From contig JANWWC010000002.1 of NCBI GenBank assembly GCA_025056215.1, positions 423,052 to 487,051 of the forward strand: a DNA stretch of 64,000 nt. Reading direction: 5' to 3'. Shown here piece by piece: positions 25,548-35,098 of this stretch. Both the position numbers and the translations under genes were made by a program. This DNA is from Cytophagales bacterium (GTDB taxonomy: Bacteria > Bacteroidota > Bacteroidia > Cytophagales > Flammeovirgaceae). A model generated the notes under the pieces. That model did not search any database. It saw only the letters and a program-made list of their open reading frames with translations, and was not told the DNA's origin. Each line of letters begins with the position of its first letter. Position 1 is the first letter of the stretch.

Positions 25548-26653
25548 AAAGACATTTTTTCCTTTCTGGCTTTTACCAGTGCAGAACCAATAATTTGGTG
25601 CATATCGTAATAACGATACTCAGCAAGGCGGCCTCCAAAAATCACGTGCGGCAATGATTGAGCAAGTGTTTCGTATTTTTTAAAAATAGCATTATTTTTT
25701 TCATCGTTGATAGGATAATAAGGTTCATCTCCTTTTTGCCATTTTTTAGAATATTCCCGCGTGATTACTGTAATAGGTTGCCTACCAAATTCAAAATGTT
25801 TATGTTCAACAATTCGAGTATAAGGCACATTTACATCTGTATAATTTACTTGAGCATTTCCTTGAAAGTTTTCTTTTTCTAAAATCTCGTGTTCAAAGCG
25901 CAAACTTCTATATTCAAGCTCTCCAAACCGATAATCAAAAAACTCGTCTATTTTGCCTGTATAAACAATTTTAGGTGCTAACTGGTCGAAATAACTTTTT
26001 TCTGAAAAATAATCTGTATTTAGTCGTACTTCTATCCCAGCTAACAATCCTTCAGTGAGTCTATTGTAACCGCCTATCGGGATTCCTTGATAACGGTCAT
26101 TAAAATAGTTATTATCGTACGTAAAGCGAACAGGCAAGCGTTTGATAATAAACGGAGGAAGTTCTTTACACGATTTTCCCCACTGTTTTTCAGTGTATCC
26201 TTTAATGAGCTTTTCAAAAATATCTCTTCCTACCAAAGAAATGGCTTGCTCTTCTAAGTTCCTGGGTTGGGTAATCCCTGCCTCTCGAATTTGTTCTTGT
26301 ATTTTAGCTTGTGCTTCTTCAGGTGTAATCACACCCCACATTTGGTGAAATGTATTCATATTGAAGGGAAGATTATACACCTTTCCTTGAAAAATAGCAG
26401 TAGGCGCATGAATGTAATGATTGAAACTCACAAACTGATTGACATAATCCCAAATTTCTTTATCATTCGTGTGAAAGATATGTGGACCATACCAATGAAC
26501 GTTAATCCCTTCTATTTCTTTGCAATACGTATTTCCACCGATGTGTGGTCTTCGGTCTATCACTAAACATTTTTTTCCGGCATTAGTCATTTCGCGAGCG
26601 AATACAGCGCCAAATAATCCTGCGCCCACAATCAGATAATCGTATGAATGCAT
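25544..26653 (-). CDS. glf: UDP-galactopyranose mutase
   Basis: A 369-residue flavoenzyme interconverting UDP-galactopyranose and UDP-galactofuranose. N-terminal FAD motif GAGLFGAVFAREM, the RPHIGGNTY segment, GPHIFHTND and the C-terminal FGGRLAEYRYYDMHQ are all typical. It supplies UDP-Galf for surface polysaccharides. It overlaps the end of the upstream membrane-protein gene by 22 nt, so the two probably share a transcript and a pathway. Length is normal and all flavin contacts visible by eye are kept. Confidence 0.95.
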   Translation of the reverse strand: MHSYDYLIVGAGLFGAVFAREMTNAGKKCLVIDRRPHIGGNTYCKEIEGINVHWYGPHIFHTNDKEIWDYVNQFVSFNHYIHAPTAIFQGKVYNLPFNMNTFHQMWGVITPEEAQAKIQEQIREAGITQPRNLEEQAISLVGRDIFEKLIKGYTEKQWGKSCKELPPFIIKRLPVRFTYDNNYFNDRYQGIPIGGYNRLTEGLLAGIEVRLNTDYFSEKSYFDQLAPKIVYTGKIDEFFDYRFGELEYRSLRFEHEILEKENFQGNAQVNYTDVNVPYTRIVEHKHFEFGRQPITVITREYSKKWQKGDEPYYPINDEKNNAIFKKYETLAQSLPHVIFGGRLAEYRYYDMHQIIGSALVKARKEKMSF

Positions 26654-29421
26654 GTCTTAAAAAAAGGAGAATAATCTATGTAAACTTTTTGACAAGGATT
26701 CTGCAAATTTATGATAATCGTATACATATCTTTTGCAGTGTATTGCACAAGTTCACGTTGTTCATTATAAATTTTTAGTTTGTCTCTAACTGCAATATTG
26801 GCGATAAGTTCTGCAGTTCGATTCTGAGAATTTATTTCGTATCCAAAACCTCGATAGCGCACCTCTACCTTCTGACCATCGGAATACCTAAAAATAGGCA
26901 AGCTATTGTTTAGCTGAAATACTTTTATATCATTATCTTCAAAGAAAAGTTTAGATTCGTGGATTAATCTGCCTCCATCAAACTCTTTAAACCTATTAAA
27001 AGAAACAATATCGCCTTGAGGAAGGATTATCCAGCCTACGGCGTGTTCTCTGAGTTCTTCGACAGTTTGATAGACGGGTTTTGAAGAAAAATTTTCATAT
27101 CCGTTGAGAGAATGAATTTTCAACAGAGTAGAAATATTGTGAGGCAAAGTAAAAACATAATTTTTTTCCGCGCTTCTTTCAGGAGTAATGCTCCAAACGT
27201 AAGAGCCTGATTTTCTGATTTCATCGTAAACAGACTTTTTTTCTAAATCCAAGATGCTTTTAGCGTAATAAGGATAAAATGACGAATTGCTATGACAAAT
27301 AACAAAAAAAGCAAACCATATGCTTAATACAACGTACATCGAAACTACAAAAAGCCAATACTTCTTGCCTGCAAAAACTCTGTTGTTTTCCAAAGCGGAA
27401 TAAAGCGTAAGAAATAAAATGAAAAATGGAAAGAACTTAAATGCTCCAAAAAATTTATCAAAAAAAGGTAACTTTTGTAACAGATTCCAAAGAAATCCGT
27501 AACTGCCTAAACACAAAACAAAAGCCAAAATTCCCATTCCTATCAAAGACCAGCTCAATACATGAGTAGTAGAAACTTTCCGAGTAGAAAAAAACATTGA
27601 GCTACTTGGAATTAAAAACAGCAATCCTGCTACTACAATAGGATTGATGAAATAAAAATTAGAAATTTCGTTAGGAATACAATGCTCATAAATAAGTTCC
27701 CTATTAACGTAAGGCCAACCCATGGGATGATTGCTAAAAAAATAAGGATAGGGGAAAAATATAGAAAGTATTCCATGAGCAATAGAACTCAGTTCTCCAT
27801 CGTCATGGCGCGCTCCATAAGCTTCGTAAACATTTGAAATTTGTAGCAAAACGAAAGGAGAACATAAAACCAAAAAAGCAAATACTGCAAAAAACAATTT
27901 CGGATAGAAACTTAAAGACTTAGCTGAGAAAGTTTGAGAAATCACAAAAATGCCTAAAAATAAAGCACTATAAGCTAACAATTGAACGTTACCTGAAAAA
28001 TAAAAAAGTAAAAAAACAATGCATAAATAAAAAGCGTGCTTCCACTTGTTTTCATTGATTATTTTTTGAACTAAATACAACGAAAGAGGCAAATAAGCAA
28101 TTACAGAGGAAGTATAATACCACGAGCGCGTTGTCATCAAATGGTAGCCTGAAAATATCCAGGCAATTGTAAAAAAAACAGAAATAAAAGAATCTACGCG
28201 ATGATACTTTAAAAAGCGAATCACGGAAACAATTCCAATCAAAAAATGAATACAAGTATAAATCTCTATTAGATATACTTCGTTTTTAAACAAATACTTG
28301 GCAATCGCCCAAGAAAGCCATACTATAGGATATAAAGAAGCATAAATTCCGAACTGAAACAAATACGTACCCCCTCCATTAAAATGAGCGTAAGAAGGTA
28401 TCTCTTTCATTTCAAATAAAATTCTACACGAATGAACCATATAAGGCATGAACTGAGCTAAATTGTCATCAGAAAGGAAATACAAAAAAAAGTTTCTGCT
28501 TTCAAGGTAATAGAACAGTATTCCAAAAATGACAATAGCTACTAAAGTTTCAAGGCGTTCAAAAATTTGATAAATCCACGCTCTGAAAAAATTGTTAATC
28601 AGCCATACTAACCAATATATCCCTAAGAACAATATCACCCACAAAATATCGTCTGTAGAAAAATGCCGTCGAATATTCAGAAGTTTAATAATTAATTTGT
28701 TTTCAATTTCGTAGGGAAATAATACGTCTATAATATCGTGCTTTAGCACACCATTTTCAAAATAATGAGATTTATCTTTGTTTTCTTTATGCCAATAAAA
28801 TACATCGTAAATCCACACATCAAAAGGTTTAGAAATTTCCGCCTGATTTTGCTGATAATATTGCTTTACTCCCTCATCCGCTTGAATAACTTTGAGCAAT
28901 ACATAATCTTGTCTTACTTGAAAAAAGAATGCTTTATCAAATAGAAAAATACAAAACAACGCACTAATCGCAAGTATTACATAGAAAGAGAATTTCAAGC
29001 TCTCATTTCGATGCTTCACAAAGTATTTCGCTCTTAGATAAAATACATAAAGAAAATAGCTTAGTATTACGAAAAAAGTAAAAAGAAGAATAATCTTGTT
29101 TGCTATCTCAAACCACTCTAAAAATGAATACCAAAAAGAAAGATTGGTAGATGGAATTAATAACTTCCCATTATGAAAGTATGGAGAAGAATTTTTATGA
29201 TTGAAGTGCCATTCTGCGGCATCAGGAAGCCATTCGTTAAAGGATTTATTAATAATATTTTTATGTTTTTCATAATACTCTTTTACACCTAAATCTTGTT
29301 GCATCAAAGTTAAAAGATGCTCTTTTTCTTTAGTATGAACGACATTTTTAATGAAAAAACTGGAAATTAGAGTTAAAAATATATATCCTAATACTACGTA
29401 TATTACAAACTTATATTTCAT
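26632..29421 (-). CDS. Large YfhO/GT-C-like membrane protein with two WLP-WH repeat units
   Basis: A 929-residue protein with about 14 membrane helices. The N-terminal part has TM1 (5-25), a first WLP-WH unit (residues 36-88, containing SFNEWLPDAAEWH), two TMs, and a second unit (174-227, FDVWIYDVFYWH). A YfhO-like polytopic core follows, with GNVQ in a mid helix and FFGAFKFFPFF near the end. A C-terminal extracytoplasmic segment of about 200 residues closes the protein. YfhO-type proteins belong to the GT-C superfamily and act on lipid-linked sugars. It overlaps glf, supporting a role in a glycan containing Galf. Donor and acceptor are unknown. Confidence 0.75.
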   Translation of the reverse strand: MKYKFVIYVVLGYIFLTLISSFFIKNVVHTKEKEHLLTLMQQDLGVKEYYEKHKNIINKSFNEWLPDAAEWHFNHKNSSPYFHNGKLLIPSTNLSFWYSFLEWFEIANKIILLFTFFVILSYFLYVFYLRAKYFVKHRNESLKFSFYVILAISALFCIFLFDKAFFFQVRQDYVLLKVIQADEGVKQYYQQNQAEISKPFDVWIYDVFYWHKENKDKSHYFENGVLKHDIIDVLFPYEIENKLIIKLLNIRRHFSTDDILWVILFLGIYWLVWLINNFFRAWIYQIFERLETLVAIVIFGILFYYLESRNFFLYFLSDDNLAQFMPYMVHSCRILFEMKEIPSYAHFNGGGTYLFQFGIYASLYPIVWLSWAIAKYLFKNEVYLIEIYTCIHFLIGIVSVIRFLKYHRVDSFISVFFTIAWIFSGYHLMTTRSWYYTSSVIAYLPLSLYLVQKIINENKWKHAFYLCIVFLLFYFSGNVQLLAYSALFLGIFVISQTFSAKSLSFYPKLFFAVFAFLVLCSPFVLLQISNVYEAYGARHDDGELSSIAHGILSIFFPYPYFFSNHPMGWPYVNRELIYEHCIPNEISNFYFINPIVVAGLLFLIPSSSMFFSTRKVSTTHVLSWSLIGMGILAFVLCLGSYGFLWNLLQKLPFFDKFFGAFKFFPFFILFLTLYSALENNRVFAGKKYWLFVVSMYVVLSIWFAFFVICHSNSSFYPYYAKSILDLEKKSVYDEIRKSGSYVWSITPERSAEKNYVFTLPHNISTLLKIHSLNGYENFSSKPVYQTVEELREHAVGWIILPQGDIVSFNRFKEFDGGRLIHESKLFFEDNDIKVFQLNNSLPIFRYSDGQKVEVRYRGFGYEINSQNRTAELIANIAVRDKLKIYNEQRELVQYTAKDMYTIIINLQNPCQKVYIDYSPFFKTCIHTII
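28741..28902 (-). repeat. WLP-WH repeat unit, copy 2
   Basis: Encodes residues about 174-227 of the YfhO-like protein. Pattern: GVKQYYQQNQ, then SKPFDVWI, then YWHKENKDKSHYFENGVL. It is the most divergent of the four copies: the LPDAA core reads IYDVF. It sits in the loop between predicted TM3 and TM4, the same side of the membrane as copy 1. Confidence 0.7.
29158..29316 (-). repeat. WLP-WH repeat unit, copy 1
   Basis: Encodes residues about 36-88 of the YfhO-like protein. Pattern: GVKEYYEKHKNIINKSF, then EWLPDAAEWH, then NHKNSSPYFHNGKL. It lies between TM1 and TM2. It aligns without gaps over most of its length with copies 3 and 4 in the gene on the other strand. Confidence 0.75.
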
Positions 29422-29557
29422 TTTTCTCTTAAATTTTCAAAATCCATAAGCTTGTATAAACTAAAACGAAATAAATTTTCTACAACAAAAAAGCAAAATA
29501 TACTTTTATTCATTTTATTTCTAATGTACTGGTGCTCAATATTACTTTTACATAATC

Positions 29558-31035
29558 AATGCTCTTGCACGGCTTTGGGACGAAGAATATTTTTTTAAGG
29601 ATATTCTGTCACATCCACTACAGATACATCAGAGAAACACCTATCTTACTAACTATCAATCATTTGGGATACGGCTCTCTTTTCTGGATTGTTAATGCCT
29701 TGATTTTTGATATTTCTCCGTCCCACTCGGCTACGCTATGCCGTGCACTGAGTTTATTCTTTACCATACTACCATTAAGAATTGTTGTATATCAGGCAAT
29801 TATTCAAATAAAAATAGCTTGTATTTTATAATACTTTGTCTTCTTTTAGTTCTTCATGGTGGTATGGTAACTGATTGGCTGCGAAACCTTAGTTTTTCAC
29901 TTGCCTTTATTTGCACTACGTTATTATTTATGAGTAATCAATCTACCTTTCTAACCATGTTTTTGATTGGCTTAGGAGTGTGGGCATTAACTCAATTTTA
30001 TTTTTCTGTTTTTCGCTGCAATCTTCCATTATTTTTTAAATAACACACCTTTTCAAACTAATACGAATTATTTCATACGCGTTATTCTTTCATCATCAGC
30101 GGGTTTCTTCTTTGCTAATATTTTTTGTTCATCAACCACAATTTCACGATTTATTGGAAAAATATTTCGTTCGACATTAACACTTTTAACAATGCGAATA
30201 TCAATTTTGGGGGATAAACTTCATTTTATCCTGTTTGGCTTCCAACAGAAAAATGCTTTCTTGTACGGAAAAATGGAGTTACTATAAAATTTTTATCATG
30301 CGCATGTTATTTACCTTTTTTTAATCTGTTAATTTTTTATAGCCTAACTATCTGATATTCAATACACAAACAAAAAAAATCAGCTTTTTTCTATCAATAT
30401 CTGTGTTAACTGTCATTTTATTGATAACGAGTTCGCCTACTTACTTCCATTGGTATTGGCTTCCACTCATTGGAGTGTATTTAGGTATTTTCTGGGAAAT
30501 TATAAAATCTCTGCTAATAAATTAACTTCTCTTAATGGTAGCTCCTACCTCATTGTGAAGAACTTACGAGCATATTTTGTTGCAAAAAGAGTATATCACC
30601 ATTTCAGATTACAGAAATAATGCTATCCATTGATATTATACTAACAAATAGCTAATATACTACTCAAAAACTTTGCATCAATTCTTACTACGTCTTGCCT
30701 TTTCTTGATGCGTATGATGCGCCAAACAAATAGAACTTTCGCAAGGGAAAATTATTTCCAGCTACGACGCATATGCAGCTACTACTGCTTTGCTTCTGCA
30801 TGAAAATCATCAATATTTGCAAGAAATTTTATCTGATTACAAAAAGGTTTTTATTATTTTGGATAAAAACTCATATCGGTATCACATTTTAAAAAATCAG
30901 ACAATTGAACAAACTCCTCAGGAGTTCATTCAAAGTCGAATACGTGTGCCAATAAGACATTTTCAGGAATACAATTGGGGTTATATTTTTATGTTACAAA
31001 ATTTATCTCTTTATAAAGTATGTGGATGTATATAG
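29558..31035 (+). pseudogene. Decayed GT-C-type membrane protein gene
   Basis: No continuous frame spans this stretch, but fragments in shifted frames read like one membrane glycosyltransferase. From 29558 there is ALARLWDEEYFFKDIL and on to NTYLTNYQSFG. One frame over from about 29664 is GYGSLFWIVNALIFD, comparable with RYGRILWIINAL in the gene at 33494. From about 29850 in a third frame is a helix-rich stretch, and at 30760-31035 a soluble tail with SSYDAYAATTALLLHENHQ. Between 30050 and 30750 stops are frequent. At least two frameshifts plus stops indicate inactivation. Its last bases overlap the start of the 825-residue gene. Confidence 0.7.
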
Positions 31036-33497
31036 CCTTTCTAAGTTTTTACGCTTGGATAACAAAATACTATTCATCAAGGCGTGAAGCACTGATAGTG
31101 AGTAGTTTAGTATGGTCTGGACTGATAATAGTGAGTACAGAATTCTTCTCTGCGTTGAAATGGATTACACCATTTTGGATTCGCACATTTTGGATAATAG
31201 TAACAAGCGTCAATGTTCTATTGATTTGGCAGAGTAGGAAATCTCTGAAAGGAAAGTTTACCATTTCCATTCCTTCTCAATACGGAGTTTGGGAGAAAAG
31301 CGTCATATTATTTATGTCTTTATTGGTTGCTTTGCTTTTCTATCAAGGTTTGTATTACGCGCCTAATAATTATGACTCCATGACTTATCACTTGGCGCGC
31401 GTGATGCGATGGACCTTCCAAAAAAGTGTATCGCATTACGCTACCCATATTCCACGACAGCTATCTATGCCGCCCTTTGCTGAGTTTGTAGCCTTGCATA
31501 GTTTTTTGTTACACAAATCTGATGTATGGTTCAATAGTATTCAGTTGTTTTATTTGCTTCTCACTTGTTGTGGTGTATCGCTCATAGCAAAAACCTTAGG
31601 TGGGAATGCACACATACAATTATACAGTGCTTTTGTTGCTCTAACTTTTCCGATGTCTGTTTTACAAGCCACTTCTACGCAAAACGACCTTGTAACAGGC
31701 TGTTTTTTGGTTATTACTTATTGGCTAATTATTCAGATTTGGCAAAAGCCGATTTCTTATTTCCCTATTTGGCTGGGTACGGCAGCAGGGTTGCTTACTC
31801 TTACTAAAGGAGTATCATTTATTTGGTTAGTGATGCCTGCTTTAGTCACAGCGTTGGTTTTAATACTTCATCTTACCAAACATCGAATCAATATCAAATC
31901 ATTTCTTATAGTAGGATTGAGCATTTTGCTTCCTACTGTGTTGCTTCCTCTTCCGCATTTCTTGCGAAACTTTCATCTTTTTGGCAACATACTTGGAACA
32001 ACCCCAGAAGACCAAAAACTATACGCCTGCGAAGAATACACTTTCAATGCTATTTATAGTAATATCATTAAAAATATCAGCTTGCATTTTAAAGAGCCTT
32101 TTATCGATAATTCGGCAGAATGGATAGTTAAAAAAATCATACCTGAAAATTACTTGAACAACCCTGTAAATACTTTTCCAGGATTAAATTTTGAACTCCG
32201 AATTACCGAATTTAGCGAAGACTATGCTTCTTCCTTTCTGGCAACGCTTTTGGTATTAGTTGGTTTATTGTGTTTGCCGTTTTTTATTAAGAAAATCTAT
32301 CAAAATAAGCCACTTTTCTTTTATGTAGTTTCTATTCTGATAAGTGGTTTGTTGTTTTGCGCCATGATAAAATGGAATCCGTGGGCTACGCGTTTACATA
32401 TCTCTTTATTTCTGCTCGCCTCTCCGCTAATTGGGTTTTTATTATTCAAAATCAAATATTTAGTTCAATTTTTAGGAAATACAGCTATTGTATTTATCAG
32501 TATCTATGCATTGTTGTTTAGTGTATTCAACAGAATACGTCCTTTGGTAGAAATCGAAAATGTAACGCATTTTGTGCGCAACAAACCAAGGTACGAAAGG
32601 CATTTTCCTTCACACCCACAAGAACGCATTGATACTTACAAAAATATCTCCTCTTTTCTAGCAGATAAAGACAGCATCGGGATTATCATAGGAGCAGACA
32701 GCTGGGAATATCCACTTTATACAGCAGATTTTTCTGCACTAAAAATTCCCAGAACCGTTTGTCATGTCAACGTTGAAAACTTGAGTAAAATATTGGAAAA
32801 ACCAACTTTACTTAATTTCATCATTACTGAAAGCGCAAATACTGATTCTTTGAAGTACGGAACAAATACGTATTTTAGAATACGCGATCATTCTCTTAAA
32901 ACCTTGCAATTATTTCAACGAGATAGTACATCAAAAGAATACGTAAATTGGGTAGAAAAAAACAAAATGAAAGAAAACCTACCCAAATTGATAGCATATA
33001 TGCGCCATGACATAGGCGTTCTGATGTATTATAAACAAAATCAACAGAGCATTGGAAAAAGTTTTGAAGAATGGTTGCCTTCTTCTGCCGAATGGCACTA
33101 TCAAAATAAACATCAATCTCCCTACTTTGTAAATGGAGAACTCCAAGATTATATTTTATCTTTTAAAGAACCAGATGAAAAAGCCATCAAACAACAACTT
33201 ATCAACATCATGAAAGATGATGAAGGGGTAAAACAATATTATGCAGAACATAGCCAAGAAATTGGAAAGAGCTTTGAAAATTGGCTTCCTGATGCTGCTC
33301 AATGGCATTTAGATAATAAAGATAAATCTAATTATTTTAAGCAGGGACAACTTATTGTGGCTGAAAAAGAAACAAAAGCAATATTTGATTTTGTAACTCC
33401 CGTCAGACAAAAACTTGGATTTTTATCTTTATTTTTAGCTATATTGATAAGTTTAACATTTGTTCATAATTTTTGTTCAACAATTTTTTTCCAATGA
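31020..33497 (+). CDS. GT39/GT-C-like membrane glycosyltransferase with two C-terminal WLP-WH units
   Basis: An 825-residue protein with about 12 membrane helices over residues 1-510. The first extracytoplasmic loop has the PNNYDSMTYHLARVMRW pattern, like the acidic catalytic loop of PMT/ArnT-type (GT39) enzymes that use polyprenyl-phosphate sugars. After a soluble segment (about 510-650) come two WLP-WH repeat units, then a single C-terminal helix (LGFLSLFLAILISLTF). The ATG overlaps the end of the upstream pseudogene, and its TGA overlaps the ATG of the next gene (ATGA), so translation of the two is probably coupled. The acceptor is unknown. Confidence 0.75.
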   Translation: MWMYIAFLSFYAWITKYYSSRREALIVSSLVWSGLIIVSTEFFSALKWITPFWIRTFWIIVTSVNVLLIWQSRKSLKGKFTISIPSQYGVWEKSVILFMSLLVALLFYQGLYYAPNNYDSMTYHLARVMRWTFQKSVSHYATHIPRQLSMPPFAEFVALHSFLLHKSDVWFNSIQLFYLLLTCCGVSLIAKTLGGNAHIQLYSAFVALTFPMSVLQATSTQNDLVTGCFLVITYWLIIQIWQKPISYFPIWLGTAAGLLTLTKGVSFIWLVMPALVTALVLILHLTKHRINIKSFLIVGLSILLPTVLLPLPHFLRNFHLFGNILGTTPEDQKLYACEEYTFNAIYSNIIKNISLHFKEPFIDNSAEWIVKKIIPENYLNNPVNTFPGLNFELRITEFSEDYASSFLATLLVLVGLLCLPFFIKKIYQNKPLFFYVVSILISGLLFCAMIKWNPWATRLHISLFLLASPLIGFLLFKIKYLVQFLGNTAIVFISIYALLFSVFNRIRPLVEIENVTHFVRNKPRYERHFPSHPQERIDTYKNISSFLADKDSIGIIIGADSWEYPLYTADFSALKIPRTVCHVNVENLSKILEKPTLLNFIITESANTDSLKYGTNTYFRIRDHSLKTLQLFQRDSTSKEYVNWVEKNKMKENLPKLIAYMRHDIGVLMYYKQNQQSIGKSFEEWLPSSAEWHYQNKHQSPYFVNGELQDYILSFKEPDEKAIKQQLINIMKDDEGVKQYYAEHSQEIGKSFENWLPDAAQWHLDNKDKSNYFKQGQLIVAEKETKAIFDFVTPVRQKLGFLSLFLAILISLTFVHNFCSTIFFQ
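32987..33150 (+). repeat. WLP-WH repeat unit, copy 3
   Basis: Encodes GVLMYYKQNQQSIGKSF, then EEWLPSSAEWH, then NKHQSPYFVNGEL. It lies in the C-terminal soluble part of the GT39-like protein, about 30 residues before copy 4. Shared positions with copy 1 include YY, KSF, WLP, WH, SPYF and NG. Confidence 0.75.
33184..33363 (+). repeat. WLP-WH repeat unit, copy 4
   Basis: Encodes GVKQYYAEHSQEIGKSF, then ENWLPDAAQWH, then NKDKSNYFKQGQL. It is the copy nearest the C-terminal membrane helix of the GT39-like protein and is most like copy 1 in the WLPDAA core. Confidence 0.75.
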
Positions 33498-35098
33498 AAC
33501 TTATCAAATTTCTGCTTATAGGAATTAGTGCGTTCATTATTGTCTTACAACTCAAAGGCATCTACTCTGCAAACACCGATTTGACAGATGCTTCGTGGAT
33601 ATTCATGGACGAAAACATTACTTTTGCTGGCGTTAAAAAACTACATCAGGCACTATACACCTTAGACAAAGGATATATCATTGACCAATTTTTAGATGGT
33701 GGTGACCATCGCTATGGCAGAATCTTATGGATAATCAATGCATTGACCTCTTTCATTCCTTCACTTATTTGGGGTGATAAAGGCGTAATAGTAGCTACCC
33801 GATTTACCCAGGCTTTCTTTTTAGTTGCTTCTTACGTAATATTAGCACACGCTCTTTTAAAAAGTTTTACATTAAGATGCGTAGCTGTTGCCTTGCTTTT
33901 GTTGCTTCCTCATACCCCTTACTACGCCACCATGCCCAAACCAGAGCCATTTCAACTATTCTTTATTGCTTTGTTTGTATGGTTTGCTTCTAAAAAAAGT
34001 TTTTTGCTCGGTAACTGGTATTGGATTTGGCTGGGAGCAGCAACAGGAGCTAAAATAGCTACATTGCCGTTGGTAGCTTTTTGGGGAGCATCTGCCTTTG
34101 GAATGGCTCTTTTGGGTCAGGACAAAAACAATCAAGAAACTGCTGCCTTTATCAAAAATCTACTCAAAACAATTGCCTGGCTAATAATCGGTTTCAACCT
34201 AGCAGAACCTATTTTTTATATCGGTCCCAAAATTTATTGGGATTGGATTAGCGGAAATGTCGTACATGGCGAAGACAACATCAACCTACAATTTTCAGAC
34301 TGGTTTATGTTTGTCATTAATAGTTGGGCTGGAATACACGGAAGATTGATGTGGATTTTTTTGAGTTTACTCGTTTTAATATCTGCATTTACTTTTTTTC
34401 AAGCTATCAAAGGCAATCATTCATATCGAAACGCAGGGCTTGTATTAGCTGGTGGTTGGCTGATGAATTTGTTTATTATGTTCACCGTTAAGCGGCTGTG
34501 GGGATTTTATCTGCAGGTGGGCAGCGCATTGTTGGTGGTAGGTGCTTTGGCGGCATTTAATTTATTGTATAGTCAGATACATCAAAAGTTAGTGCGATTT
34601 TTGGGAATTATCTTAGGGTTGATACTGGTTGCTAACGGAACAATTCTGCAACTTCAATATACGAAAAATGTTTATGAAGAACTAGCGACCAGAACTCAAA
34701 ATCCGCAACATATCTTTAAAGTGAAGCAACAAATATGGTCTGAAAATTTCATTAATAAGCTCTATCGACAAAAAAACAAAACATTATTGGGATTTTATGC
34801 ACCAGCTTTGTATCAATTCAGAATACAACCTGAAACAGCACTTATTCGTCCGATTTGGGGTGCTTTTTTAGATTATTCTTCTCAACCCGATTTTATTATT
34901 ACTGATTTCTGTTTATTACCCGATACAGTAAATTTATCTGAAAATATCTTTAAAGATTCTTTTCGCAAATCAGCGGTGTTGTACGGCAAGCACGTGGCTA
35001 TTGCTCTCAATGACAGTTGCTTAGCAATTCCTTGCTACATAGAAACTAAAATTGACAGTTTGAAGTTGTTTTTATATACACAAAAAACATTTCCATAA
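33494..35098 (+). CDS. Polytopic membrane protein, GT-C type
   Basis: About 534 residues from the ATG that overlaps the previous stop (ATGA); the longer frame would need TTG. It has roughly 10-11 membrane helices and a soluble C-terminal domain of about 150 residues. The first loop contains acidic residues (DASWIFMDEN, then DGGDHRYGRILW), as expected for a GT-C catalytic loop, but I cannot assign a numbered family with confidence. It shares the YGRILWIINAL-type motif with the pseudogene upstream. Tight coupling to the GT39-like gene suggests the two act on the same glycan or lipid-linked sugar. Confidence 0.7.
   Translation: MKLIKFLLIGISAFIIVLQLKGIYSANTDLTDASWIFMDENITFAGVKKLHQALYTLDKGYIIDQFLDGGDHRYGRILWIINALTSFIPSLIWGDKGVIVATRFTQAFFLVASYVILAHALLKSFTLRCVAVALLLLLPHTPYYATMPKPEPFQLFFIALFVWFASKKSFLLGNWYWIWLGAATGAKIATLPLVAFWGASAFGMALLGQDKNNQETAAFIKNLLKTIAWLIIGFNLAEPIFYIGPKIYWDWISGNVVHGEDNINLQFSDWFMFVINSWAGIHGRLMWIFLSLLVLISAFTFFQAIKGNHSYRNAGLVLAGGWLMNLFIMFTVKRLWGFYLQVGSALLVVGALAAFNLLYSQIHQKLVRFLGIILGLILVANGTILQLQYTKNVYEELATRTQNPQHIFKVKQQIWSENFINKLYRQKNKTLLGFYAPALYQFRIQPETALIRPIWGAFLDYSSQPDFIITDFCLLPDTVNLSENIFKDSFRKSAVLYGKHVAIALNDSCLAIPCYIETKIDSLKLFLYTQKTFP

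Follow-up and report, generated by a model that had tools for sequence, protein, structure and literature searches.

Background

GT-C enzymes bear a DxD-like motif in their first large outer loop. An excerpt of PMC8035078 gives this motif as a DxD, or a modified form of it, located in an extracellular loop and describes some GT-C enzymes as carrying extracellular carbohydrate-binding domains; that smaller GT-C enzymes may need a partner protein for acceptor recognition is treated in the same excerpt as an open point.

In this study, we analysed a window of 64,000 nucleotides (the whole stretch of DNA under study) from a Cytophagales bacterium, in which two neighbouring genes on opposite strands encode membrane proteins, here called A and B, that share a small repeated unit. 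Protein A (929 aa, 26632..29421, minus strand) is a membrane protein with a YfhO-like core, its link to YfhO running through distant relatives only. Protein B (825 aa, 31020..33497, plus strand) is a GT39/PMT_2-like membrane protein of the GT-C type, as judged from a weak PMT_2 match and from its relatives.

A repeated unit in proteins A and B

Analysis of both proteins revealed four copies of a unit of 57 residues, two in each protein. Copies A1 (29155..29325, minus strand) and A2 (28738..28908, minus strand) cover residues 33–89 and 172–228 of protein A, while copies B1 (32979..33149, plus strand) and B2 (33189..33359, plus strand) cover residues 654–710 and 724–780 of protein B; A2 is the most divergent of the four. 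Identity ranged from 23 to 28 of the 57 positions over all six pairs (40–49%), and 18 of the 57 columns are invariant, leading to the set L..D.GV..YY..I.K.F..W..WH..K..S.YF..G.L (spacing not to scale). Local alignment of the pairs resulted in scores of 121–174, compared to shuffle means of 24.6–26.5 (standard deviation of about 5) and a top score of 58 among 1000 shuffles over any of the six pairs. A profile built from the four copies recovered all of them from the 2.83 Mb genome (E 3.9e-31 to 2.5e-33), the sole further row at E ≤ 10 having an E value of 0.47. The shared module is thus real and well beyond chance, and a previous sequence-only reading, which had noticed a unit of about 55 residues occurring four times, was borne out by the alignment scores and the profile search alike. 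The motif given in that reading also largely held, apart from "WLPxAA" (WIYDVF in A2), the N before K (H in A1), and "NG" (QG in B2).

Architecture of the host proteins

In protein A, both copies are located in an N-terminal extension (about residues 1–280; 28582..29421, minus strand) with the predicted order helix, unit, helix, helix, unit, helix, the helices being predicted membrane helices. While the whole protein had no relative at E ≤ 1e-5 in the 57 genomes searched besides its own (58 in total), its core revealed four distant relatives at E ≤ 0.001 among the other 394 of 395 genomes. One relative is fragmentary, and for two the locus ends before the C-terminus is reached; the N-termini are present in all four. 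Since the equivalents of A residues 310–383 sit at positions 91–114 in these relatives, some 220–270 N-terminal residues of A are without counterpart, and no counterpart of the extension was found in the four aligned sequences.

In regard to the core itself, the Pfam family YfhO (PF09586) matches two of the distant relatives (L032, E 1.3e-20; L033, E 6.3e-20), but protein A gave no match at E ≤ 1 and thus stays below the gathering cut-off of 28.5 bits, so that its label as YfhO-like is indirect. The label is further supported by an hhalign probability of 96 over 121 columns. Searching the genome with the YfhO family at E ≤ 10 led to another locus only and not to protein A; the only match above the cut-off was an 846-codon frame elsewhere in the genome (L115, G000:C10:5463-5636).

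The core of protein B is a member of a widespread family, with 339 relatives confirmed in genome contigs. PMT_2 (PF13231) scored 23.2 bits on the whole protein and 23.8 bits on the core, below the gathering cut-off of 26.1; one relative (L020, E 7.4e-77 to B) scored 32.7 and so exceeded it, and another (L021) gave no PMT_2 match at E ≤ 0.01. D119, together with S120, Y123 and H124, is invariant in all eight aligned sequences and lies in a predicted outer loop (residues 111–175), its catalytic role being putative.

All seven aligned B relatives from related genomes stop near B residue 636 and carry no units (an eighth match, L027, covering B 3–314 only, was excluded from the alignment). In an alignment of B with 77 of 80 relatives, namely those longer than 600 aa, coverage was 0.94–0.99 over B residues 561–620 and 0.01–0.09 over residues 641–825. 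Based on these end points and on the drop in coverage, the two units and the last helix of B form a C-terminal extension (residues 637–825; 32928..33497, plus strand), in which the tandem units come after the conserved C-terminal soluble domain and before an extra membrane helix at about residues 794–819. The earlier description of all copies as lying in loops between membrane helices applies to A, where these helices are predicted; in B the copies are in tandem and followed by one extra terminal helix. A search with the unit HMM in the best 80 of the 339 B-relative loci, using ORFs of 100 aa or more, revealed nothing credible (top E 1.5). The tails past the matched region measured at most 76 residues in 74 of these 80 loci and 82–134 residues in the other six, none of which matched the unit. 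Three of the B relatives, from Omnitrophota (L047, L050 and L079), possess C-terminal tails of their own of 122–126 residues, which are mutually alike by eye and gave no unit match.

Comparison of the two cores (A 281–929, B 1–636) resulted in an alignment score of 52.0, equal to the mean of 300 shuffles (52.0), in agreement with the earlier impression that the hosts are unrelated apart from the units. At the level of sequence, what A and B have in common is essentially the unit. Copying of a whole helix-unit-helix block was also considered, and found no support: four of five flank comparisons gave shuffle fractions of 0.08 to 0.71, and the lowest fraction, 0.0315 for the region downstream of A2 and B2, is one of five tests and uncorrected. 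In BLAST, one of the unit matches did continue into the helix after the unit (37% over 94 residues).

Database searches and distribution of the unit

Searches with the unit against family collections resulted only in hits of single copies, with best E values of 0.053 in Pfam, 0.041 in NCBIfam and 0.023 in PHROGs, while the top hit among PDB sequences was a kynurenine aminotransferase (E 0.6). Identity with a named domain of these collections was rejected, as the best family hit had an E value of 0.023 or worse and rested on single copies. The earlier statement that no named domain shows this pattern thus stands for Pfam, NCBIfam, PHROGs and the PDB sequences. Using predicted structures, Foldseek against PDB gave best E values of 9.0 for the unit alone and 8.2 for the unit with the following helix, and three and six chains from these searches, respectively, were re-checked with VIA-align. 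A search against BFVD, performed with the longer model only, led to a winged-helix protein (best E 0.76), which we did not accept as a relation.

The unit profile matched only the source genome in the family sample (1 of 18 genomes), the order sample (1 of 390), the class sample (1 of 395) and, at E ≤ 0.01, the relatives sample (1 of 97); some genomes belong to more than one of these samples, and no further species of the source genus is among the genomes listed. In the phylum sample of 395 genomes, ten others gave matches at E 0.0014–0.0096 per genome, with about four expected by chance. Five of these ten matches contain stops, and re-scoring resulted in 11.6–15.5 bits compared to more than 100 for true copies. 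Based on the low scores and the stops, all ten were rejected as chance matches. None of 60 pattern matches in viral contigs and none of 65 in genome contigs could be confirmed, although scans with short exact patterns may miss distant relatives, and a search of plasmids and phages with the B1-B2 tandem protein gave no match. As it was found neither in a known family nor in any other genome searched, the unit looks like a lineage-specific add-on.

Membrane side, predicted fold and constraint

Averaged over B and 77 relatives, short loops rich in lysine and arginine alternate with loops poor in them, which places the acidic loop 111–175 and everything after residue 500 outside, provided that residues 252–280 are taken as two helices. 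In protein A, four lysines or arginines lie between helices 2 and 3, and the units before and after are on the opposite face from these residues. Contrary charges were detected at the last helix of B (two lysines or arginines before and none after) and at the fourth helix of A (four before and one after). Taken together, the charge patterns predict a periplasmic position for all four copies, and hence a common side of the membrane, with two helices at odds with the positive-inside pattern.

AlphaFold2 modelling of the unit alone, using the four copies, resulted in a pLDDT of 91.1 and a pTM of 0.77 with helices at positions 2–14, 17–30 and 34–47 followed by a short hairpin; since the alignment consists of four paralogues only, this prediction is good but shallow. 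When the region of B after the unit was included, the mean pLDDT was 84.4 and a long helix was predicted at positions 68–109. The unit is accordingly modelled as a compact three-helix domain with a hairpin. Nine of the ten invariant residues in predicted helices, including Y22, Y23, W37, W44 and H45, point no more than 70 degrees away from the hydrophobic face of their helix, a test that is partly circular because the invariant residues themselves help to define this face. With the conserved aromatic residues on hydrophobic faces, a folding core fits better than a sugar-binding surface, and the binding site that had been proposed from the aromatic residues and the histidine was not borne out.

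In regard to constraint, dN/dS (NG86) between the copies amounted to 0.29–0.49 in those four pairs, out of six, for which dS was estimable. Since dS is high or saturated, selective constraint on the units is only suggested by these values.

Genomic neighbourhood

The stretch from A to a third gene, C (26632-35098), revealed a GC content of 33.3% compared to 37.1% in the rest of the window; each of 78 other segments of equal length has a higher value, the lowest being 35.2%. The AT-richest coding parts are the unit-bearing ends, with GC contents of 28.5% in A and 30.7% in B, which a protein composition rich in Lys, Asn and Ile could cause. The stretch is flanked by housekeeping genes on both sides, namely that for UDP-galactopyranose mutase followed by purK and others on one side, and those for DUF3109 and RelA/SpoT on the other. 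Protein C (541 aa, 33473-35098, plus strand) is multi-pass membrane-like without a Pfam match at E ≤ 1; it starts with TTG and shares 25 bases with the end of B.

The region between A and B (29422-31019) consists of decayed coding sequence with membrane-protein-like stretches and stops in all three plus-strand frames. It resembles protein C by eye; tblastn of A, B and C against it gave no match at E ≤ 0.01, and its best non-self match was an ORF from a relative locus (E 9e-5).

Possible role of the unit

The explanation that we tentatively favour, with somewhat less than even confidence, is docking: the unit would be an accessory domain specific to this lineage, copied onto the neighbouring GT-C-type proteins A and B and tying both to a shared partner or acceptor. 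A small periplasmic domain able to fold by itself would have undergone duplication inside a single chromosomal neighbourhood and become joined to unrelated GT-C-type proteins, with two copies at the N-terminus of A and two at the C-terminus of B. The units would be on the same membrane side as the predicted catalytic loops and might link A and B to a single partner or acceptor glycan, bringing the action of both to one place. The homology of the copies, their architecture as terminal extensions, the predicted side, the predicted fold and the restricted distribution are supported by the analyses described here. Beyond these, we infer selective constraint, a docking role, a common partner and a joint action of A and B. 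The core-like placement of the conserved residues, the restriction of the unit to one of the genomes searched and the contrary charges at two helices count against this explanation.

The main rival, which we rank as nearly as likely as docking, is an inert or structural appendage that arose by local duplication and persists by folding harmlessly or by stabilising or spacing helices, in which case A and B would not act together. Such an appendage would fit a unit that is found in one genome only, whose invariant residues resemble a folding core, and which is situated in an AT-rich neighbourhood with decayed coding sequence, as in a fast-changing locus; it fits less well with copies that, at 40–49% identity, retain 18 invariant positions and open frames, or with the dN/dS values of 0.29–0.49 in four of six pairs. 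Two further ideas appear rather unlikely. The units of A might bind those of B directly and clamp both transferases into one complex, which would fit a unit common to two neighbouring genes with two copies each on the same predicted side. More speculatively, and with about as small a chance, the unit might be a novel domain dedicated to the pairing or docking of GT-C-type transferases, of the cohesin/dockerin kind, made in this lineage and coupling two unrelated transferases in a periplasmic glycan-assembly complex. Least probable is the sugar- or lipid-binding module of the sequence-only reading, with conserved aromatics stacking on a ligand: the unit has many conserved aromatics and a histidine, and the excerpt of PMC8035078 mentions extracellular carbohydrate-binding domains on GT-C enzymes, but the helix aromatics of the unit face the hydrophobic side, and neither a meaningful PDB sequence match nor a significant fold match was obtained.

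If docking of A and B to a common partner or acceptor holds true, the locus would offer a testable case of separate GT-C transferases brought to one acceptor, and it would illustrate the spread of a new small domain between neighbours that are otherwise unrelated. As an inert appendage, it would be a small curiosity of domain shuffling only.

Comparison with known systems

Altogether, the setting of the unit is familiar, whereas the small domain itself is new. Compared to the PMT_2/GT39-like family (PF13231), the core of B matches weakly and below the curated cut-off, and the aligned relatives are without units. Protein A is linked to the YfhO family (PF09586) via L032 and L033, and it has an extra N-terminal region that bears the units. 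Like AftD and possibly S. aureus YfhO, as far as these are covered in the excerpt of PMC8035078, A and B combine a multi-pass transferase-like core with a domain added at the outer face. In contrast to these systems as described there, no carbohydrate-binding family was recognised in the unit of A and B, and the added domain is about 57 residues long, mostly helical, repeated, and common to two unrelated cores.
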